A stretch of 64,000 nt of DNA from Halobaculum sp. XH14 (GTDB taxonomy: Archaea; Halobacteriota; Halobacteria; Halobacteriales; Haloferacaceae), in contig NZ_CP134949.1 in NCBI RefSeq assembly GCF_032116555.1, positions 992,001 to 1,056,000 on the forward strand. Direction: 5' to 3'. A program made the position numbers and the translations under genes. A model generated the notes under the pieces. The model worked only from the letters and a program-made list of their open reading frames with translations, was not told the origin of the DNA and ran no database searches. Positions 49,428 to 59,914 of this stretch are shown piece by piece (positions within the stretch are counted from its first letter, which is position 1; each line of letters begins with the position of its first letter).

Positions 49428-49450
49428 ATTTACCGGGATGTGCGGTAAAT
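49428..49450. promoter_or_regulatory. dyad ATTTACCG-GGATGTG-CGGTAAAT
   Basis: A perfect 8-bp inverted repeat with a 7-nt centre lies 78-100 nt upstream of the ATG at 49528, the first gene of the 49.5-51.6 kb unit. Upstream of an AT-rich TATA candidate (ATTAAATAAA, 49481-49490), it is placed like an activator or regulator site. It could also be a stem-loop in a transcript from the left. Confidence 0.45.
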
Positions 49451-49527
49451 TAGCATCAACCGCCTGGAAGGACCATTACCATTAAATAAACACGTCCCCG
49501 ACTTCGCGTATACTTTCCCCGGAGACC

Positions 49528-50661
49528 ATGTCAGAGGACGAAGCGTCGGCCGACCCCGAGCTAGACATCGACACGTTCGAGGAGTGGCTGACACGCGTCG
49601 CGGACTCGCGTGACTCCTCCGAGGGCGCGGTGCTGGATCGGATGATGTCCTCCTACTGGGTCCTGGACGAGCTCGAGGAGCTCCTCGAAAGCCGCGCGAC
49701 GGGCGCCGACCTCGACGTGGGTTCGGCTCCGGACCGTTCCTCGGCCGAGGAGGTGGCGTCCTCCGGCGACCCCGCGGACGTTCCCCTCGACGAGCTTCGG
49801 GAGACGGTCGAATCGGTCCTGTCCGAGGCCGACCTGCCGACGGCCGACCCGTCATCGTCGCCCGAGGGCGGCGAGCGGGACGCGGACGTGACCCGCCGGA
49901 TGGACACGCTCGGGCGCGAACTCGCGTCGCTCACGTGGGAGGTCGACCGCCTGGCGGACCGGCAGGACGAGCAGGCCGAGTCGCTGGCCGCCACGAGAGA
50001 GCGACTCTCGGAGGCGGCCGCGAGGATGGAAGAGGAGCAGGAAGCATCCGTCGCCGCGGTCGAGTCGGCCGTTCGATCGCTCACCGAGCGCGTCGAGGCC
50101 GTCGAGGACGAACAGCGGGAGGTCCGTGGAAACCTCACCGAGGACCTCACGCACGTCGAGGAGGTGCTCCGTTACCTGGTCGAGCGGACGAACGAGTTCG
50201 ACGACCGGCTGGAGCGCCTGGATCGGAAGCTCGAACGCGAACTCGACGTAATCCGGGAAGGCCAGACCGGCCAGCAGGAACTCGCCGACCTCATGCGGAG
50301 CGCGGCCGAACACGGGATCGACGGGGCGACGTGTGCGGACTGTGACGGCCGCGTCGAACTCGGCCTGCTCGTCGAACCGCGGTGTCCCCACTGCTCGTCG
50401 CCGATCGTCGACGTGACGCCGAAGACGGGCTGGTTCGGCTCCGCGACGCTGGAGACGGCCGCCGGCCCGGCCGGACCGGACCGATCCGGGCACTCGACCC
50501 GGCGAGTGCGGGGACGACGGGACGACGACGGTGAACTGACCCCGCCCGACGTCGACCTCGACGGAACGGACTCGACGCGGGAGGACGCTCCCGACGGAGG
50601 GAACGGCACCGGTAATTCGGACGCGAGTGACCCGTCGCCGTCCGAAACGACCGATGAGTGA
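49528..50661 (+). CDS. coiled-coil protein with C-terminal zinc ribbon
   Basis: A 377-aa protein, MSEDEASADPELDIDTFEEW at its start. An N-terminal acidic helical part (to about 110) is followed by a long coiled coil (about 125-265: MDTLGRELASLTWEVDRLAD and later heptads), then a zinc ribbon CADC...CPHC near 272-290 and a disordered tail (Gly, Asp, Thr, Ser). I do not recognise the family. It is the first gene of a probable unit with the following DUF7504-like gene; it may be a scaffold or signalling partner in the surface-system cluster. Confidence 0.75.
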   Translation: MSEDEASADPELDIDTFEEWLTRVADSRDSSEGAVLDRMMSSYWVLDELEELLESRATGADLDVGSAPDRSSAEEVASSGDPADVPLDELRETVESVLSEADLPTADPSSSPEGGERDADVTRRMDTLGRELASLTWEVDRLADRQDEQAESLAATRERLSEAAARMEEEQEASVAAVESAVRSLTERVEAVEDEQREVRGNLTEDLTHVEEVLRYLVERTNEFDDRLERLDRKLERELDVIREGQTGQQELADLMRSAAEHGIDGATCADCDGRVELGLLVEPRCPHCSSPIVDVTPKTGWFGSATLETAAGPAGPDRSGHSTRRVRGRRDDDGELTPPDVDLDGTDSTREDAPDGGNGTGNSDASDPSPSETTDE

Positions 50662-50810
50662 GACGTCCCCGTCCGCAATGTGTAGCTCCGCCGCGGGGCG
50701 GTTCGTTCCCCCCACGAGCGTCGCCGGGCCGGGTCGGGCCGGTACGGACTCCCCCCGACCCGGACGGGACGGACGCGGATCGACGTCGAACCGGTCAGGA
50801 GGCTCCTCCC

Positions 50811-51629
50811 ATGTCAGGTGACGACTCCACGGACGGTGTGGGCAGCGAGGACGAGACGAGGGCCTCGCTCGCGGAGCTTGCCGACTCAGTCTCGAACCGG
50901 TCCCGGAAGGAGTCCTCGCCTGTACCCAGTTTGAACCTGAGCGACTCCGGGACGGCGGCCGGGGACTCGTTCGAGTGGGTCCAGTCCGGGGACGACCGCA
51001 CCTCGCCGCCGACCGACCCGACGACCGACGTCGGCGACGAGTCGAACGTGCTGGTGCTCGGTCCGCTCACGGGAGCCGATCACGACCGGCACTGTACGAA
51101 CCTGCTCAGTAGCGGCACCACGACCCCCGAGAACGTCCTCTTCGTGACGCTGACCCGCACCGCGACCGAACGCTGGAACACGTGGCGGCGATACACGGAC
51201 GAACAGCCGGCCAACCTGTGCGTGCTCAGCGTGGGCGAACGGACCCGGGGCGCGACGCGCTCGTCGGTCACCACGGCGAACGCCGGGTCGGGGACGATCC
51301 GGACGGAGACGCTCTCGGACGCCTCGGATCTCACCAGGCTCGGGATCAAGATCAACAAACTGCTCAAGGAGTGGAGTGACAGCCCGGGGCAGTCGAGGCT
51401 CTGTCTCCACTCGCTGACGGAGCTGCTCCAGTACACGGACCCCCAGCGGCTGTTCCGGTTCGTCCACGTCCTCCAGGGGCGCGTCGACTCGCTGGACGCG
51501 ACCGCCCACTATCACCTCTACCCGGACGCACACGACGACCAGACCGTCGCGGTGTTCAGGACGCTGTTCGACACCGTGGCACGCGTGACCGAGGGGGGCG
51601 AGCTTGTCGTCGAGTCGGGTTCCGACTGA
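50811..51629 (+). CDS. DUF7504-like protein with degenerate P-loop (KaiC/RecA-like)
   Basis: A 272-aa protein. After an acidic, disordered N-terminus (to about 80) comes a RecA/KaiC-like core: VLVLGPLTGADHDRHCTNLL takes the place of a Walker A loop but lacks the GKS/T, and LCLHSLTELLQYTDPQRLFRFVHVLQGRV is the region around the Walker B and following helix. A fold without ATP binding would be a pseudo-ATPase. The ATG at 50811 is preceded by the SD-like GGAGG (about 10 nt upstream). It is co-directional with the coiled-coil gene, separated by about 150 bp. Confidence 0.75.
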   Translation: MSGDDSTDGVGSEDETRASLAELADSVSNRSRKESSPVPSLNLSDSGTAAGDSFEWVQSGDDRTSPPTDPTTDVGDESNVLVLGPLTGADHDRHCTNLLSSGTTTPENVLFVTLTRTATERWNTWRRYTDEQPANLCVLSVGERTRGATRSSVTTANAGSGTIRTETLSDASDLTRLGIKINKLLKEWSDSPGQSRLCLHSLTELLQYTDPQRLFRFVHVLQGRVDSLDATAHYHLYPDAHDDQTVAVFRTLFDTVARVTEGGELVVESGSD

Positions 51630-51689
51630 GATGGAGAGCCCGCGCCGCCGTCCGGACCTTTGCCCATCGAGGAGTCCGAGGACCGCCGG

Positions 51690-52265
51690 TCAGTCGTCCG
51701 TCCGCAGCTCCGGCGGCGGACCGTCGTCGCCGATCCGCATCTGCCGGCTGTAGTAGAGCTGGACGAACGCGGACACGCCGAAGGAGACCAGCACGACGCC
51801 GCCCCACGCGAGGTCCGGGAGCGCGTCGAACGGTCTGACCTCGTACCACGCGAGCCCGAGCAGGACGGCGTTCGCCAGGGTGAGTCCGGCGTAGAAGATG
51901 CTCCACGGGATGCTCTCCTTCGGGACGACCTCCAGATAGAGGTCCACGCCGCTCATCGAGTCGCTCAGCTCGACGGTTCCGGCCTCCGAATCGTACTCGA
52001 CGAGCCCCTGTTTGTCCATCGTCGACAGATGGGACTGGTAAAGCGAGATGTACACCCGCTTTCGCTCCTGGGAGGTGAGCGCCTCGATCGACTTCCCGTT
52101 CTCCCAGGCGGCCACCTGTTCGGCGAGTTCCTGGACCGAGACGGGTTCGTTCCGCTGTTTCAGGTGGTGCAGGGCGTACCGACGCCTGGTGTCCGAGAGC
52201 GCGCTGTACAGCGCGGTTTCCGCGAGTGGTTCCTGGCGCGTGGAGTCAGGTTGATCGAGGGACAT
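51690..52265 (-). CDS. HTH regulator with two transmembrane helices (DUF7344-like)
   Basis: A 191-aa protein. An ArsR-like winged helix covers about residues 15-85 (ALYSALSDTRRRYALHHLKQ, SVQELAEQVAAWENGKS, SLYQSHLSTMDKQGLVEYD). Two hydrophobic helices follow at about 125-140 and 148-168 (SIFYAGLTLANAVLLGLAWY and WGGVVLVSFGVSAFVQLYY), so it is a membrane-bound DNA-binding protein of the DUF7344 type. It is divergent from the DUF1102 gene at 52536, with a near-perfect palindrome between them, so it probably controls that gene. Confidence 0.8.
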   Translation of the reverse strand: MSLDQPDSTRQEPLAETALYSALSDTRRRYALHHLKQRNEPVSVQELAEQVAAWENGKSIEALTSQERKRVYISLYQSHLSTMDKQGLVEYDSEAGTVELSDSMSGVDLYLEVVPKESIPWSIFYAGLTLANAVLLGLAWYEVRPFDALPDLAWGGVVLVSFGVSAFVQLYYSRQMRIGDDGPPPELRTDD

Positions 52266-52397
52266 TGCAGACGTCGAAGAGGTTTCGTGCCCGCGAGTCG
52301 GTCGTATCGTGCCGTAAAGGTTGCCGTTCGTACGTGTTCGACGGACGTGGACCGATCGCGACCGAACCGAATCGAGTGGCTTAACGACCCGTTTAAC

Positions 52398-52420
52398 CCG
52401 GTTTAGGAGGTCCTAACCGG
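52398..52420. promoter_or_regulatory. near-perfect dyad between the HTH regulator and DUF1102 gene
   Basis: CCGGTTTAGGA-GG-TCCTAACCGG (52398-52408 and 52411-52420) is palindromic except for one extra T in the left arm. It lies upstream of a TATA-like TCTTACAAAG (52433-52442), between two divergent genes, a good place for the HTH regulator to bind. Confidence 0.55.
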
Positions 52421-52478
52421 AAAGTAGGGAGGTCTTACAAAGGGGGTGGGTGGTGTACGGCTGAGTAAGCCTCGCCGT

Positions 52479-52498
52479 GCCAGCACGGACGTGCTGGC
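52479..52498 (+). promoter_or_regulatory. stem-loop in the DUF1102 leader
   Basis: GCCAGCAC-GGAC-GTGCTGGC is a perfect 8-bp stem with a 4-nt loop, located 38-57 nt before the start codon. With the SD-like GGAG (52521-52524) it indicates a structured, ribosome-binding-site-bearing 5' leader, unlike the leaderless genes elsewhere in the window. Confidence 0.5.
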
Positions 52499-52535
52499 GT
52501 GTGTGGGCGATAACCAACAAGGAGATCACGATACA

Positions 52536-53042
52536 ATGAGACCCAAAGGAAAACTGTTCGCGCTGCTCGCGGTGTTCGCTGCAATCGGCCTCGTCACCGC
52601 GTCGGGCGCGTTTACGACGGTGAGTGCGGAACGGACTGCCACGGTGAACGTTGCTGGCGACTCGAGCGCGTTGCTCCAGTTACAAGGTAACAGCACGTAC
52701 GCAACCACTGACGGTGGGCAGAACGGTGGAGAGCTGACGCTTAATTTCGACACGGATGCAGGCGCATCGGGCCTAAACCAGAACGCCACGACCGAGGTAA
52801 ACCATGTGTTCAACATCACGAACCAGGGGAGCCAGAACGTCATTATCGACATCGGAGTGCAGAACGACTCCGATGCGGATTCGTTCGCCTTCTTTGATGG
52901 GAACGACGATAGCAGCATCAATGGCACAGAGCTTGGACCAGGTGACTCTGTCAGTGTTGGGATGGAAATAATCACTGACGGGGACGGAAACGACTTCAAC
53001 GTGGACTTTACCATCGTCGCCGACGCTGAGGAGACAGCCTAA
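52536..53042 (+). CDS. exported DUF1102-like protein (major-subunit candidate)
   Basis: A 168-aa protein with a signal peptide (MRPKGKLFALLAVFAAIGLV, then GAFTTVSAERTATVNVAGD) and a beta-rich mature part with several NxT/S sites (NSTYATTD, NATTEVNHVF, NITNQGSQN, NGTELGPG). The block F-T-x-V-x-x-x-R-x-x-x-V-x-V-A-G-D-x-x-A-L-L-x-L is shared with the gene at 55378-56685. DUF1102 proteins resemble TasA/camelysin-type fibre subunits in layout; that role is inferred. Its codon use is less GC-rich than its neighbours. Good SD (GGAG) 12-15 nt upstream of the ATG. Confidence 0.8.
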   Translation: MRPKGKLFALLAVFAAIGLVTASGAFTTVSAERTATVNVAGDSSALLQLQGNSTYATTDGGQNGGELTLNFDTDAGASGLNQNATTEVNHVFNITNQGSQNVIIDIGVQNDSDADSFAFFDGNDDSSINGTELGPGDSVSVGMEIITDGDGNDFNVDFTIVADAEETA

Positions 53043-53152
53043 ACTACCTCCTTCGGCCGTAGATTGCGCGGGTAGTAGCTCGAGTTCAGACAGAAACGGC
53101 CCCAGCTCGACCTTCTCGTCCGTCGACGAGCAACTGGTCCAAAACGCACGAA

Positions 53153-55273
53153 ATGAAACTCCACAGCTTCAACGCCGCGGTCCTCGCCCTCGTCCTCGTG
53201 GGACTCGTCGTCCCGACCGGGGCCGCCGTGAGCGGCGCGCTCGCCGTGGACGACCTCTGGGCCGAGAACGACGTGGTTCTCACCCCGTCGGACGGGCCGA
53301 ACGGCGAGTACGCGACCGTCGGCGAGGACGGCAACCTCTCGATCGACCTCCGGGACCCCGGCGTCAACGACGGCGGCGAGACCGTCATCGCGGACGTCGT
53401 CCGGATCGAGAATCGGGGTGAGACGGCACAGCGCGTCTGGCTCACCCACGAGGGCTCCCCGGCGGTCACGCTGGTCGACAGTTCGACCGGCGAGCCCATC
53501 GCGGGCGCGGATCACAACGTGACGCTGGTGGAGGGTGCCGCGGTCGCCGTCGGCATCCGCATCGACACCCGCGGCGAGGACACCGCCGCCGGAGACCTGC
53601 TTCTCGATTCGATCACGCTTCACGCGGCCGCCGCCGATCCGACGGAGCCGCCCGAGAACGGTTCGGACGGCGGTTCGGGAGGCGGTGGTGACGGGGATTC
53701 CGGCGCCGCGCCGGCAACGCCCGTGCCGACCGAACAGCCCACCGAAGCGCCGCCACTCGACCAGGCCAACGATTCGGACGTCGAGGTCGAGTTCGAGGAG
53801 GGGTCCCCGGACCGCAACGTCACCGTTCGGGCGATGGACCCGGACACGCTCGACGGGAACACGACCGATCCGGACCCGCGCCCACAGGCGGTCATCTCGC
53901 CGGACGACTCGGCGGGCGGCTCAGCCGGCGGTGACGGAACGGACGGTCGGACGCGCCGGATCGACAACGTCACCGTCGACGCCGTAACCACCGCGGGGGA
54001 GCCGATCACGCTCACCGGGACGCGCTCGACCGTCGATACGGTTGCCGACGTCGACTCGGACCGCCGGATCGTGAAGGTCGTGGACATCACGGCACCCCCG
54101 GGCCGGGAGAATCAGCCGGCGACCGTCCGCATGCGTGTCGCCCGTGACAAGCTCGAAGGAACGCCGCCCGAGGCCGCACGCATCGGTCACCGCACCGACA
54201 GCGGGTGGCAGCTCCTCGGGACCCGCGTGGTTTCGACGGCGGACGGCTCCGTCGTGCTGGAGGCCAGAACCGACGGCTTCAGCCCGTTCGCCGTGTTCCG
54301 GAGCCCGGGGGTCACATACGAGTGGCGGCTCCCGAACGGCACGGCCGTCTCGAAGGAGCAGCTCCGGTCGACGTTCGACGAGCCGGGCTTCTACAACGTC
54401 TCGCTCACCGTGCGGGACGCGAACGGGGACCAGGACACCACGAACTACCGGATCCTCGCCAACGACCGGCCCACCGTCACGCTCGATTCGCCCGCGAACG
54501 TCTCGGTCGGCGAGCCCGTTCCGCTCCGCGCGAACGTCTCGAACCGGTACGGGAACCACACCGTCACGTGGCACCTCCCGAACGGAACCGAGCGGACGGG
54601 CGAGGCCCTGAACTACACGTTCACCGGGGTCGAACGGACCGTGCGTGTGACGGTCCAGGACGAGTTCGGCGCGAACAGCACGACCGAGGAGACGTTCCTC
54701 GTCGGCGCGCCGGGTGCCGGCGGCGGGGGCGGACAACTCGCCGTCGTCGGCGAGAGCTTCCCGGTCGGGACGTGGCTCGCGCTCTTCGGGATCGTCGCCG
54801 GGCTGCTCGGAACCGTCTACTGGGCCAGTTCGGTCGACCTCCGGTGGGTGCTGGCGCTTCTGGGCCGCCGTTCCGGGGACGACGGTCCACGCGTTACGGC
54901 GTTCGAGAACCCCTCCTGGAACCGCCGGCTGGGACTGTTCGAGGTCGGCCACCTCCGCGTCGAGGATCCGACCGGCGATCTGGACCGGATCGACCTCGCG
55001 CTGTGTGACGGTGACGGGAACGAACTGGCCAGAAAGCGGATCGAGCCGGCACGCCCGGACGTGTACAGCGCGTCGCCCGAGCGGATCCCGGGCGTCGGGC
55101 TGTCCGCCGACGGTCCCGGCGACCTCGGGCGGGACTACTCGGTGAGCGTCCGCGCGGTGGATGCGGCCGACAACGTCGCCACGTTCAGCGGTTCCACGTT
55201 CCGAGTCGACCGGCGGGCGCCGGTTGCGACCGACGGCGGCGAGCCCGTCGACGCACGCGAGGAGTTCCGGTAA
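53153..55273 (+). CDS. large membrane-anchored surface protein with DUF1102-like, PGF-pre-PGF and PKD-like domains
   Basis: A 706-aa protein: signal peptide (about 1-28), a DUF1102-like region (about 29-160, GALAVDDLWAENDVVLTP and LSIDLRDPGVNDGGETVIADVVRI), a Gly/Asp/Pro/Thr-rich linker (about 160-215), a PGF-pre-PGF-like domain (about 215-385, ending DGFSPFAVF), two PKD-like domains (about 388-525, FDEPGFYNVSLTVRDANGDQD), one transmembrane helix (about 540-563), then a beta domain of about 120 residues. It is likely the anchor or adhesin partner of the small DUF1102 protein, which ends 110 nt before it. Confidence 0.78.
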   Translation: MKLHSFNAAVLALVLVGLVVPTGAAVSGALAVDDLWAENDVVLTPSDGPNGEYATVGEDGNLSIDLRDPGVNDGGETVIADVVRIENRGETAQRVWLTHEGSPAVTLVDSSTGEPIAGADHNVTLVEGAAVAVGIRIDTRGEDTAAGDLLLDSITLHAAAADPTEPPENGSDGGSGGGGDGDSGAAPATPVPTEQPTEAPPLDQANDSDVEVEFEEGSPDRNVTVRAMDPDTLDGNTTDPDPRPQAVISPDDSAGGSAGGDGTDGRTRRIDNVTVDAVTTAGEPITLTGTRSTVDTVADVDSDRRIVKVVDITAPPGRENQPATVRMRVARDKLEGTPPEAARIGHRTDSGWQLLGTRVVSTADGSVVLEARTDGFSPFAVFRSPGVTYEWRLPNGTAVSKEQLRSTFDEPGFYNVSLTVRDANGDQDTTNYRILANDRPTVTLDSPANVSVGEPVPLRANVSNRYGNHTVTWHLPNGTERTGEALNYTFTGVERTVRVTVQDEFGANSTTEETFLVGAPGAGGGGGQLAVVGESFPVGTWLALFGIVAGLLGTVYWASSVDLRWVLALLGRRSGDDGPRVTAFENPSWNRRLGLFEVGHLRVEDPTGDLDRIDLALCDGDGNELARKRIEPARPDVYSASPERIPGVGLSADGPGDLGRDYSVSVRAVDAADNVATFSGSTFRVDRRAPVATDGGEPVDAREEFR

Positions 55274-55377
55274 CGACCCTCTCGTACCGGGCCGCCTGCC
55301 CGGCGAACCCGGCGTAACTGGTACCCTGACGAACGGGGTCGGATACGTGCGGACGGGGCTGAAAAACCGGGACGTCT

Positions 55378-56685
55378 TCAGTCGTCGTCGTCTTCGTCCT
55401 CATCGTCGTCACCATCCTCATCGTCTTCGTCGTCGTCTTCGTCATCGCCATCGTCGTCTTCCTCCTCGTCTTCACTGTCGTGGTCGTCGTCGCCATCGTC
55501 TCCGTCGTCACCATCCTCGCCCGCTCCTCCCTCTTCGTCATCGCCGTCGCCGCCGTCGTCCTCCTCGTCACCCTCGCCCGCGACGACGGTCTTCGTGTCC
55601 GAATCCACCACGAGGCCGTCGTCGTCGACGACCTCCACGATGACGGTATACGTGTCGCCCTCCGTCCCGCCCCGCGTGTAGGTCGCCGTCCCGGTCGGCG
55701 CGCTGGTGACCGTCTTCGTCTCGGTCGCCCAGTGCTTGTCCGGGTCCGTGTGCTCGAACGTGATCCTGACCGACTGGTACTCCGCCAGGTCCGCGACCTC
55801 GTACTCGACGGTGAACTCCGTGTTGTCGTTCTCGGTGGCGTCCGAGACGGTGAACCACTCCAGGGTCGGACTCGTCGGCCTGCTCAGATCGTCGTTCCCT
55901 GCCGGGTCCTCGCCGTCGGCAACGTCCTCGATCGTCTCGGTCAGGACCAGTTCGTCCGACGCGTCGAACACCTCGATGACGACGTCGTACGGGGTTCCCT
56001 CAGTCCCGCCGTGCCAGTACGTGAGCACCCCCGCCGACTCCGTGCTCGACCGAGACTCGGTCGCCCACGATTTCGATCCCGCGACGAACTCGACCTCGAT
56101 GGAGCCGAACGACTCGACGCCCTCGACCCGGTAGGAGAGCTCGTACTCGGCGTTCGTGTCCCGCGTGAGGTCCTCGAGGACCCGCCTGAGGACGCCCACC
56201 GAGTCCACGTCGACCCGTCGCGTCTGCGTGATCGAGAGGACTCCCCCGTTCGTCGCGTCGATGGTGAACGGGAGCGCGTCGACCCCGGTCGGCCCGTTCG
56301 CCGCGAGGTCGACCTCGAAGGAGGCCGACTCGCCGGGCGCGAGGACGACCGACTGCGGGCTGAGCGACCCCTGCGACGGGTCGTCCAGCGACACCGACAC
56401 GTCGAGGTCGACGTTCGCGTTGTTCGTCGCCGTCACGAGCCGCGTGGGGCCCGAGCCGCTCTCGACGGACGGCACGACGTCGAGCCCCAGGAGCGCGTCC
56501 TCGTCGGACGCGACGCCGACGTCCGCCCCTCGATTCGACGTGACCTGCGAGAACGCCCGCGTGTTCGTCGCCAGGCCCGCTGCGCCGAACAGGACCATGC
56601 CCGCGCCCATCAGCTTTCGGCGGGAGTAGCCACTGCGGCCACCGTCGCGCCCCCGTGATGGTCGGTTCCGGTCCCGTCGGCCCAT
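55378..56685 (-). CDS. exported DUF1102-like protein with acidic C-terminal tail
   Basis: A 435-aa protein with a signal (SRRKLMGAGMVLFGAAGLA) and then FSQVTSNRGADVGVASDEDALLGL, matching the start of the protein at 52536. Two similar beta domains follow (about 160-265 and 275-375, both with W-A-T-E-S/T-R/K and Y-W/T-H/R-GGTEG), then a tail of about 60 residues that is almost only Asp, Glu and Gly. The tail DNA is a GTC/CTC/ATC triplet-rich stretch prone to slippage. It is oriented opposite to the two upstream DUF1102-like genes. Confidence 0.75.
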   Translation of the reverse strand: MGRRDRNRPSRGRDGGRSGYSRRKLMGAGMVLFGAAGLATNTRAFSQVTSNRGADVGVASDEDALLGLDVVPSVESGSGPTRLVTATNNANVDLDVSVSLDDPSQGSLSPQSVVLAPGESASFEVDLAANGPTGVDALPFTIDATNGGVLSITQTRRVDVDSVGVLRRVLEDLTRDTNAEYELSYRVEGVESFGSIEVEFVAGSKSWATESRSSTESAGVLTYWHGGTEGTPYDVVIEVFDASDELVLTETIEDVADGEDPAGNDDLSRPTSPTLEWFTVSDATENDNTEFTVEYEVADLAEYQSVRITFEHTDPDKHWATETKTVTSAPTGTATYTRGGTEGDTYTVIVEVVDDDGLVVDSDTKTVVAGEGDEEDDGGDGDDEEGGAGEDGDDGDDGDDDHDSEDEEEDDDGDDEDDDEDDEDGDDDEDEDDDD

Positions 56686-57029
56686 GGCAGTAAGACATCA
56701 CTACTCGGTCTCACGGGAACTTAAACAGTGTGCCATCCGTTCGTTGCCGCGAGCGGCCGCGACGCCGCCGACCGTCTCACGGACGAGCCTCCCGGGAACG
56801 GGTTCCGCGGGGAAGCCACCCCGGCCCGGACGGCGACCGGCGTCGAAATTGTTTTGTCTCCGAGAGGTAAGGGACGGGTACGTCGAACCGATGGGCACGT
56901 CTGCAACCAGCCTGAACCCGGTGCTCGCGGGTCAGTCCCTGCCGGCAACTCCGCGGCCGGCCGGTCCTCGACCGGGTCGGGCCGGTCGGTCGAACTGCCG
57001 GACGGACGGAGAGCGACCGTTCCACCCCG
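56686..57029. other. intergenic region between divergent DUF1102-like and DUF5305 genes
   Basis: These 344 bases separate divergent genes. The left end (AACTTAAACAG, about 56720) may be a promoter for the leftward gene, and AAATTGTTTTG (56850-56860) is the only other AT-rich spot. No gene or repeat was seen. Confidence 0.5.
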
Positions 57030-58052
57030 ATGTCGAGTAGCGAGCGCGTCGACCGGTACCTGCACCAGTACGGGACGGCCGTCGTCGTCGTCCTGCTGCT
57101 GGCCGGGCTCGCCGGACTGGGGGGTGCCGCCGTGGAGTACACCGACTCGTCGACCGAGCAGGTCTCCGAGGAGGTCGACCGGCAGCAGTACGCGACGAGC
57201 GGCCGGACGAGCGCGGTCGTCACCGGGAACACGACGCTGTACGAGGCGAACGAACGGCTCGTGGACATGCCGGCGTACTTCTTCGCCGCGTCGCCGAACC
57301 TCACCGTCGCCGTCGAGACGAGCGTGCCGGCCGACCGGGAGGTGGAGGTCACCCAGCGACTGACGCTCAGGACGCGGGCGGCCAGGGAGGGACAGCAGTT
57401 CTGGGAGTCGCGGCGGCTCCTCGGTGCCGACTCCGTGACGGTGTCGGACGGTTCGCTCCGGACGAACGCCACGGTGAACATGTCGGCGGTCCGCGCGGCG
57501 CTCAACGAGAAACGGGCCGCCATCGGCACCGTCGGCACGCTGGACACGCGGCTGGTGGTGAACGTCACGTACGAATCGGACCTGTACTCCGGGTCGCTCA
57601 CCGCGGAGGCGCCGGTCGTCCTGACCGACCGCGCCTACTGGCTCGGGTCGGACCTCTCCGCGTCCCAGCCCCACAGCAGGACCGTGACCCGACAGGTCAC
57701 CGAACCGCCCAACCTGCCGCTCGCCGGGGGGCTCGCGGCCGCCGGCCTGGTGGCGCTGGTGCTGGCCGGGGCAGTCTGGAACCGGTCACAGTCGATCGAC
57801 GAAAGCGCGCTCGGGACGACGGTCGCCCGAGCGCGGTTCGAGGAGTGGATCTCCGACGGCGAGATCCCGACGAAAACCGGGAAGGAGTACACCCGGACCG
57901 ACTCGCTCGAGGACCTCGTCGACATCGGCATCGACTCCGGCAAGCGGGTCATCTACGACGACGAACTCGACGCCTACGCCGTCATCGAGGGCGACGTCGT
58001 CCACTACTACACGACGGGTGACGAGGACATCACCGACTGGTTCGACGTGTGA
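57030..58052 (+). CDS. DUF5305 membrane protein
   Basis: A 340-aa protein with an N-terminal transmembrane helix (about 16-35), an external beta-rich domain (about 40-225) with SPNLTVAVETSVPAD, TLRTRAA and VTVSDGSLRTNATVNMSAVR, and a second helix (about 231-251) followed by a cytoplasmic C-terminal domain of about 85 residues (RARFEEWISDGEIPT, LVDIGIDSGKRVIYDDE, VVHYYTTG). This is the DUF5305 layout. It lies between the DUF1102-like gene and a signal peptidase gene, a co-occurrence I recall in haloarchaea. Confidence 0.82.
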   Translation: MSSSERVDRYLHQYGTAVVVVLLLAGLAGLGGAAVEYTDSSTEQVSEEVDRQQYATSGRTSAVVTGNTTLYEANERLVDMPAYFFAASPNLTVAVETSVPADREVEVTQRLTLRTRAAREGQQFWESRRLLGADSVTVSDGSLRTNATVNMSAVRAALNEKRAAIGTVGTLDTRLVVNVTYESDLYSGSLTAEAPVVLTDRAYWLGSDLSASQPHSRTVTRQVTEPPNLPLAGGLAAAGLVALVLAGAVWNRSQSIDESALGTTVARARFEEWISDGEIPTKTGKEYTRTDSLEDLVDIGIDSGKRVIYDDELDAYAVIEGDVVHYYTTGDEDITDWFDV

Positions 58053-58130
58053 GTTCGGCGCGGTTTCGCCTGCTCGAACGGCAGTACCGACTGGGGATGT
58101 TTTCCCCGATCCGGCCGTCCCGGGGGCCGC

Positions 58131-59288
58131 TTACCGGAGCTTTCGCCGGAGCCAATCGAGCGCCGACACGTCCCGCGACCCCGCGTCCAGCCTGATCGGC
58201 CCCCAGCCCACGAGTGCGGCCGCGAGCGCGACGAACCCGACGGCGACGAGCGCGTCGATCACGACGATCGGGGCCCAGGGGTGGAGCCGGTACAGGGTCT
58301 CGATCGTCGACGTCGGCAGCACCGCGAGATACCGGTGTTCGTGGAAGGAGCGCCGGTAGTACCCCGTCTCCGGCGGCGCCTGCAGCGTGACCGTGGCGTT
58401 CGCCCGGCTGTTGGCGGCGATCGACATGCTCTCGGGCGAGACGCTGATCCCCTCGCTCGTCGGCTCGAAGAACACGACGACCGGGACGATGCCGTTGCTC
58501 GGGACGGTGTAGGTGAGGTTCTCCGACTCGCCGGCCGGGATCACTCCCTGCCGCCCTGAGTCGCTCTGGGAGCTCACCACGTCGAACTGCTGCTGGCCGC
58601 CGGGGACGACCATGCTCGCGGTGATGACGGTGACGAGGACGACCGCGAGCACGAGGATGACCGCACGTGCGTCGACGGACCCCGTCTTGCGCCGTCCGTT
58701 GCTCCGGCGTCGCTGGGTCCGCGGGGAGCCGAACAGCTCCGTGAGGACGTACGCGACCGTGCCGATCGCGAACAGGAGATAGGAGAGCCCCTGGGTGCCG
58801 AGCACCGCACGCGTCCCGAGCAGGATCGCGAGCTGCTGCTGGAACCCGGTGAGCACGTCGTTGACGCCGGTGACGAGCGTGCCCAGCCCCGGCAGGACGA
58901 CCACCTCGCCGCCGACCTGGAGCGCCTTGGCGACCACCTGGTCCTCGCCGACGGGCGGCTCGACGCCGTCCTGGTCGGTGACCGGGTTCGCGTCGCCCCT
59001 GGTGACGTAGCCGGCGTCCGTCTCGCCCACCACGCGGTGGGTCGTGAGACCACCCCCGTGCAGCTCCTGTGCCTCGAACACGATGACGTTGCCGGGCTCG
59101 ACCGGGCCGGCGATCGCCATCGGGACGGCGACGAACCCGTCGCCCGGATCCATGGTCGGGGCCATGCTCCCGGTCTCGACGTAGCCGAGCAGGACCGGCT
59201 GGCCGAGGACCTGCCCGAGAAACAGCGACAGGACGACCAGTGCCACGCACGCGGTGAGGACGTAGCCGACCAGTGAGCGCAGGTTCAT
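58131..59288 (-). CDS. signal peptidase I (SipW/Sec11-like) with extra external domain
   Basis: A 385-aa protein. The S26 peptidase domain follows an N-terminal transmembrane helix (about 5-27), with catalytic Ser41 in ETGSMAPTMDPGD and His84 in TTHRVVGE; a His in place of the bacterial Lys is typical of the archaeal/ER/SipW type. TRGDANPVTD follows. Beyond about 150 come two further helices (about 152-180 and 209-230), an external beta domain (about 231-330, with a pattern resembling the Ig-like domains of exported proteins) and another helix (about 340-365). The extension is unusual in simple Sec11/SipW enzymes. Its gene neighbours suggest a substrate among the DUF1102 proteins. Confidence 0.85.
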   Translation of the reverse strand: MNLRSLVGYVLTACVALVVLSLFLGQVLGQPVLLGYVETGSMAPTMDPGDGFVAVPMAIAGPVEPGNVIVFEAQELHGGGLTTHRVVGETDAGYVTRGDANPVTDQDGVEPPVGEDQVVAKALQVGGEVVVLPGLGTLVTGVNDVLTGFQQQLAILLGTRAVLGTQGLSYLLFAIGTVAYVLTELFGSPRTQRRRSNGRRKTGSVDARAVILVLAVVLVTVITASMVVPGGQQQFDVVSSQSDSGRQGVIPAGESENLTYTVPSNGIVPVVVFFEPTSEGISVSPESMSIAANSRANATVTLQAPPETGYYRRSFHEHRYLAVLPTSTIETLYRLHPWAPIVVIDALVAVGFVALAAALVGWGPIRLDAGSRDVSALDWLRRKLR

Positions 59289-59493
59289 GTGTCTCCTCCT
59301 GTTGGGCCGGAGTTCGCCCCGAGCAGCCCGCCTCCGCCGCTCGGTGGAGTCGTGCCGGGAACGGCGCGGACTGGCCGAGTGATGTCACCAGCACGCAACG
59401 GACGGGCCAGGTTATGGCTGTCGGTACTCGACGGGGGCGGGTGCAGGCGACCGACCGCACGTGGACGTGGCGGCCCTCCGTGGCGCCGGCGGC

Positions 59494-59835
59494 TCACGTC
59501 GACGCGACGAACAGGATCCAGGTGTTCCAGACGGTGACCAGAACGCCGAGGGTCGCCAGCCCGAGCGGGACGCCGACGCGGTGTGGACGGGGCGTCAGCC
59601 GCCAGAGCCCCACACAGAGCGCGACGGTGAGTCCTTTGAGGACGACCAGCGGCACGTAGCCGTGGGTGAGGACGTACGCCGCGACCGGTCCGACCTCGAC
59701 GACCTGGTCCAGGCTGAGGCCGATCGTCGTCGTCACGAGGTCGCCACAGACGAAAAACAGCACCGCGCCGAGCCAGAGGTAGGCGCTCCTCGCGGTGAAG
59801 TACCGTATCGTCTCCTCGCCGAACGCTCGTGACAT
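59494..59835 (-). CDS. small four-helix membrane protein (DUF5658-like)
   Basis: A 113-aa protein with four hydrophobic segments and a GDLVTTTIGLSL segment in the second part, resembling the haloarchaeal DUF5658 family. The ATG at 59835 is supported by the TATA-like CATATTTAC on the coding strand about 30-40 nt upstream; the longer frame to 59889 covers this promoter. It lies upstream of the signal peptidase gene on the same strand, about 200 bp away. Function unknown. Confidence 0.7.
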   Translation of the reverse strand: MSRAFGEETIRYFTARSAYLWLGAVLFFVCGDLVTTTIGLSLDQVVEVGPVAAYVLTHGYVPLVVLKGLTVALCVGLWRLTPRPHRVGVPLGLATLGVLVTVWNTWILFVAST

Positions 59836-59914
59836 CCGTAGTGACCGTACGTCGACCGAGCGGAGCGTAAATATGTCGGTCACGTACACAGTGTCGCCGG
59901 CTTAAACTATCCGT

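Follow-up and report, generated by a model that had tools for sequence, protein, structure and literature searches.

In Halobaculum sp. XH14 a compact set of genes is most likely responsible for a thin surface pilus, whose small subunits interlock through beta-strands and are freed by a signal peptidase of their own, and we are largely confident that this cluster, lying within the 64,000-nucleotide stretch of DNA analysed here (the window), is a locus for a donor-strand pilus of the Tafi type. Since pili of this type had been solved and given their name in 2025-26, the original prediction of a fibre system, which is supported by homology to the solved Tafi pilus and by strong co-occurrence of the genes, was right in its idea and not new; the window adds a distinct variant.

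The gene cluster

All nine genes of the cluster were confirmed by codon bias and independent re-calling (Table 1), the first of them beginning at 49528 and not at 49428, where the cluster had originally been placed. Most show haloarchaeal codon bias (GC3 of 0.85-0.95), the value for the pilin gene at 52536 being 0.67, and since they lie on both strands they do not form a single operon. Scans with Pfam and NCBIfam gave firm names to several of the proteins and agreed with much of what had been read from the letters, namely a membrane-bound HTH protein with a C-terminal membrane segment (DUF7344, 6e-30), a DUF5305 membrane protein (1e-47), a DUF7504 protein (1e-40) that lacks a P-loop, having no Walker A motif, and a SipW/Sec11-like peptidase (TIGR02228, 52.9 bits, above the cut-off of 51.85) with an added external domain at about residues 232-335.

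The claim of three exported, mutually related proteins held. The Pfam DUF1102 model touches only the 52536 protein (21.8 bits, slightly below its cut-off of 22.2) and matches neither 53153 nor 55378. However, an independent pilin profile made from 60 small pilins, with 53153 and 55378 both left out, reaches exactly three places in the organism's own genome, 52536 (6e-43), 53153 (5e-14) and 55378 (1e-8), so the kinship of the three proteins stands. This profile was used in place of an early iterative clustering, which had lumped TafE-, PKD- and TafC-type proteins and may have drifted via shared PKD domains. The genome carries one SipW of this kind, one DUF5305 and three pilin-family genes, all of them inside the cluster.

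Table 1. Features of the cluster (positions within the window) and tRNA-like leaders at other loci
Feature	Position	Strand	Remarks
Coiled-coil protein with Cys4 (zinc-ribbon-like) motif	49528..50661	+	accessory
DUF7504 protein	50811..51629	+	no Walker A motif; start codon uncertain, frame open from 50658
DUF7344 winged-helix protein	51690..52265	-	C-terminal membrane segment
Inverted repeat GCCAGCACG-GA-CGTGCTGGC	52479..52498		perfect 9-bp, in pilin leader; strong hairpin, z -3.2
Small pilin, 168 aa	52536..53042	+	Sec-type signal; G24-A25-F26...R33 at cleavage/donor-strand region
Pilin-fold domain protein	53153..55273	+	domain 53279-53644 without donor motif; PGF-pre-PGF-like region; PKD domains; membrane segment at residues 535-556
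TafC-like exported subunit	55378..56685	-	Tat-like signal; donor-like RAFSQVTSNR; two similar repeats; acidic tail
DUF5305	57030..58052	+	membrane helix, beta-rich outside domain, membrane helix, cytoplasmic domain
Dedicated SipW/Sec11-type signal peptidase	58131..59288	-	S41, H84, D99, D105; extra outside domain, about residues 232-335
DUF5658 small membrane protein, three-span	59494..59889	-	adjoins SipW
tRNA-like element	L094:6015, L058:15625, L138:8011, L104:5133, L146:5964 and about 20 more in type I loci		none in window
Leader ahead of TasA/camelysin-type genes or 5S rRNA	L192, L193, L194, L195, L199, L200, L201, L204, L209, L211, L220, L221, L232, L237, L238

In the peptidase the residues S41, H84, D99 and D105 are invariant, there is a match to SEC11A (2.7e-5), and the outside domain sits between the third and fourth of four membrane-like segments. 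The model of DUF5305 is confident (pLDDT 93), and a fold search showed its outside domain to be a generic beta-sandwich, with only generic Ig-like matches, such as to transglutaminase and arrestin-type domains (best Z 8.8), so that the fold suggests no mechanism; from its linkage, DUF5305 is likely an assembly or anchoring platform. The DUF7344 gene is divergent from the pilin gene, an arrangement common to most relatives, and its product, one of 21 DUF7344 domains in the genome, is likely the regulator. The predicted coiled-coil/zinc-ribbon gene is present, and its family is near-ubiquitous in haloarchaea; we therefore dropped it as a core part, though a long copy recurs at the type II loci defined below. 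The DUF7504 gene, which we also regard as accessory, recurs together with it. Membership of DUF5658 in the pilus system is uncertain; its gene adjoins SipW in Halopenitus loci too.

The small pilin and its solved relatives

The 52536 protein, which had been singled out as the most likely structural subunit, is homologous to the solved "Pilin" of PDB entry 9P0A (1.4e-6 with the single sequence, 1e-34 with a 60-sequence family profile) and is likely the main fibre subunit. In the structure library 9P0A is entered as the Natrinema sp. J7-2 Tafi pilus, with a release date of 2025-07-23. The structural comparison that had been proposed as a check was carried out on this small protein and indicated a donor-strand pilin fold: its AlphaFold model (pLDDT 78) matched 9P0A with Z 9.3 (rmsd 3.1, 118 aligned residues, 28% identity), the AbpA bundling pilin 7UEG with Z 8.2 and FimA with Z of about 7. 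As a ciliary Ig-like domain scored level with 9P0A (Z 9.4), the fold by itself is not decisive, and it is the homology in sequence that decides. TasA was absent from the matches listed, among which was the TasA-like 7UEG. The AbpA bundling pili of Pyrobaculum calidifontis are described as TasA-like and donor-strand (PMC9674648), and they have the beta-sandwich pilin fold in common with the window pilin, but the 52536 family profile detected no sequence homology to 7UEG.

Within the pilin alignment G24, A25, F26 and R33 are invariant, and the pattern GAFx6R occurs in 194/324 family ORFs as against 3/631 other proteins from the same loci. Of the 215 residues in the 9P0A entry, 188 are present in the structure, and our alignment extends as far as residue 215; if nothing else is missing, its mature chain would begin at this invariant GAF motif. 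A Tat-like RRx[FLVIM] signal is found in 241/324 pilin-family ORFs; unlike this majority, and unlike the pilin of the 9P0A system, the window pilin (52536-52610) has a Sec-type PKGKL signal, as do some type II pilins. The hairpin ahead of 52536 was dropped as a candidate conserved element, as the leaders of relatives do not have it in the same place.

The gene for 9P0A could be located, the 169 readable residues being 100% identical to the product of G091:C49:118023-118529. Its neighbours are a SipW homologue at a distance of about 1.6 kb and DUF5305 at 3.2 kb; in this locus (L167) the strand that bears the pilin also has DUF5305, SipW and an anchored subunit, with DUF7344 on the opposite strand. 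The Natrinema sp. J7-2 system and the window share in one locus a homologous pilin with a GAF...R N-terminus, SipW, DUF5305, an anchored subunit and DUF7344. They differ in that DUF5305 and SipW are convergent in the window, not co-directional, in that the window DUF5305 belongs to a separate clade, and in the addition of the coiled-coil/DUF7504 pair. Gene content like that of the window, including DUF7344, DUF5305 and SipW, is also seen at the taf locus curated in NCBIfam (TafA, TafC, TafE and TafF; NF052520-NF052523), where the order is SipW, TafF, TafE / TafA, DUF7344, TafC, DUF5305 (L066); going by this order, the TafB and TafD that the series lacks would be DUF7344 and DUF5305. Against the fimbrial families of NCBIfam release 20 (2026), 52536 matched TafE and 55378 matched TafC, no window protein exceeding the curated Taf cut-offs (TafE 53.2/155, TafC 37.6/410 and TafA 20.5/190 bits). 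A search of a limited literature collection found no archaeal paper on Tafi pili or 9P0A; the "Tafi" of the Salmonella literature, which stands for thin aggregative fimbriae, has nothing to do with this name.

TasA/camelysin fibres, named originally as a similar system, give way to the Tafi pilus as the closest relative. In Bacillus, SipW is an ER-type Ser-His peptidase that serves TasA specifically, and Phe occupies P2' of the TasA cleavage site (PMC10269814); the haloarchaeal GAF site is comparable. The window and the Bacillus TasA-SipW-TapA fibres both combine a dedicated ER-type Ser-His peptidase with a secreted fibre subunit bearing Phe at the cleavage region (PMC10269814); unlike the Bacillus system, the window has no TapA and has DUF5305, DUF7344 and an anchored subunit. 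The dedicated SipW-type peptidase, the beta-sandwich subunits, the presence of the TasA-like archaeal pilin 7UEG among the fold matches, and partners with an acidic tail or PKD domains would also fit a surface coat or a loosely organised secreted matrix, after the model proposed for the TasA/camelysin-type biofilm matrix, in place of an ordered pilus. We regard such a matrix as quite improbable, given that the closest solved relative is a pilus, that the TasA/camelysin profiles PF12389 and TIGR04088 gave no match up to an E-value of 1 for any window protein, and that the anchored donor-less subunit described below fits a pilus base.

Co-occurrence across haloarchaea

When checked across genomes, as had been proposed, the genes co-occur far beyond chance. 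SipW was found in 113/145 genomes of the class. Among the 141 haloarchaeal genomes common to the SipW, TafA-profile and DUF5305 searches, SipW is present in 110, every one of which (110/110) also has DUF5305, a gene that occurs alone in four; matches to the TafA profile fall in 100/110 genomes with SipW vs 0/31 without it. Given that the genomes are related to one another, we do not take the p-values literally. Synteny is also evident: in 99 of the 113 SipW loci DUF5305 lies less than 1 kb away from SipW, in 100 there is a pilin-family gene within 5 kb, and 94 include DUF7344. The location of the genes on both strands, and the widespread occurrence of the coiled-coil and DUF7344 families, could be taken as signs of a chance neighbourhood of unrelated surface genes, to which we assign a close to negligible probability: linkage of SipW, DUF5305, pilin and DUF7344 is kept in about a hundred loci, which refutes this reading for those genes, and DUF5658 may be a chance neighbour. 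The Tafi-type pilus offers a likely function for DUF1102-like proteins, for DUF5305 and for a subset of DUF7344, families that sit in most haloarchaeal genomes.

The cluster is patchy, as two other Halobaculum genomes have only distant SipW homologues. On the third contig of a same-genus genome (L174, G311:C3:71130, and L181, G311:C3:71706), a distant pilin-like gene adjoins that of a short SipW-like peptidase (39% identical); this pair is another, smaller system.

Subunit classes, locus types and tRNA-like leaders

The two larger pilin-family proteins of the window match the pilin profile in different ways. In 53153 the match begins only at profile position 49; the simplest reading is that this protein is a membrane-anchored base subunit, likely offering a groove and no donor strand. 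In 55378 the match is confined to the donor-bearing part (positions 3-72), and the acidic tail (55378-55620) is extreme even for a haloarchaeon, the last 80 residues of the protein being 66% Asp/Glu; we consider this protein a candidate for a tip or otherwise special subunit. Across the family, 334 ORFs sorted with a relaxed version of the donor motif comprise 229 with the motif only, 53 with a C-terminal membrane segment only, 49 with neither and 3 with both. This near-exclusion of donor and anchor suggests a system of secreted pilins and one anchored, donor-less base subunit, here 53153. The converse polarity, with 55378 cell-proximal and 53153 a separate surface protein that has borrowed a pilin domain, could draw on the limited profile match of 55378 and on the PKD domains of 53153, which are typical for surface proteins. 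It is unlikely, since subunits like 53153 (membrane segment, no donor motif) occur in 53 loci, 47 of which also have donor-bearing pilins, and both TafF of the curated taf locus and the subunit adjoining the 9P0A pilin are built in this way.

With 53153 as the base, we infer the following course of assembly for the window. The 52536 and 55378 proteins would be exported by way of their Sec-type and Tat-like signals, respectively. Cleavage at their (G/R)AF motif would fall to the dedicated SipW-type peptidase, and the N-terminal strand released from one pilin would then enter the groove of the next, so that the filament could grow without chaperone, usher or ATPase. Held in the membrane with its groove domain, 53153 would likely accept the first pilin, DUF5305, which almost always adjoins the peptidase, would likely serve as the platform, and DUF7344 would likely act as regulator. 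The donor/anchor rule is a direct, testable model of how a pilus might start at the membrane without these three kinds of helper.

We designated as type II those loci in which DUF5305 and SipW are tightly convergent or which include the coiled-coil gene, and all others as type I. In the DUF5305 tree the type II loci lie all on one side of a branch (16/16 rows, support 100, branch length 1.5), a side made up of the window, Halobaculum saliterrae, Halobellus, Halopenitus, Natronomonas aquatica, Haloquadratum walsbyi J07HQW1 and a Haloarculaceae MAG. The window shows that Tafi pili, solved only recently, have a second architecture. A single genome may carry two different type II loci, as with L036 and L053 (G125) and with L085 and L156 (Halobellus captivus ZY21).

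At type I loci we observed a tRNA-like element, roughly AACCCAC-(8-58 nt)-CGGCGG-TTCRAYT-CCGCCG-GTGGGTT, ahead of pilin-family genes (24/26 copies, 17 loci). It consists of an acceptor-like stem and a T-arm with a TTCRAYT loop, located 4-42 nt upstream of the start codons, and the elements at pilin genes gave neither a complete tRNA nor an Rfam family match. Pairing in the T-stem reaches 98%, three of its pairs vary on both sides, and the structure as a whole shows modest covariation. A covariance model built solely from pilin-gene leaders has matches in 89/137 genomes, none of them in the window or the rest of its genome; the best score in the window was 12 bits, and a leader there was dropped as a candidate. 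Other t-element candidates of Haloferax were reportedly not cleaved in vitro in a study of 2012.

Among 40 strong matches inspected, 6 stood before pilin genes, 13-14 before TasA/camelysin-type genes and 11 before 5S rRNA genes, the rest being unclear. The leader is also found upstream of such Tat-exported TasA/camelysin-type genes in genomes without a pilus locus, and of four of the proteins encoded behind it that were checked, TIGR04088 was passed by 4/4 and PF12389 by 2/4. The 11 matches at 5S rRNA genes (identified with Rfam) are directly upstream, with a one-nucleotide gap, and correspond to the known t-element, which is cut by tRNase Z in Haloferax volcanii (PMC4326828); the leaders of the fibre genes may be processed likewise. 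As a single, tentative proposal whose chances we put at somewhat below even, we speculate that the window represents a second haloarchaeal lineage of donor-strand pili, marked by its separate DUF5305 clade, convergent peptidase and platform genes and coiled-coil/DUF7504 module, that a two-class rule of secreted donor-bearing pilins and anchored donor-less bases, the latter setting the polarity of the filament, holds throughout the family, and that, outside the window, fibre mRNAs are cut by RNase P and tRNase Z at the tRNA-like leaders. The leader connects two fibre families, and with it t-elements would become candidate signals for mRNA processing.
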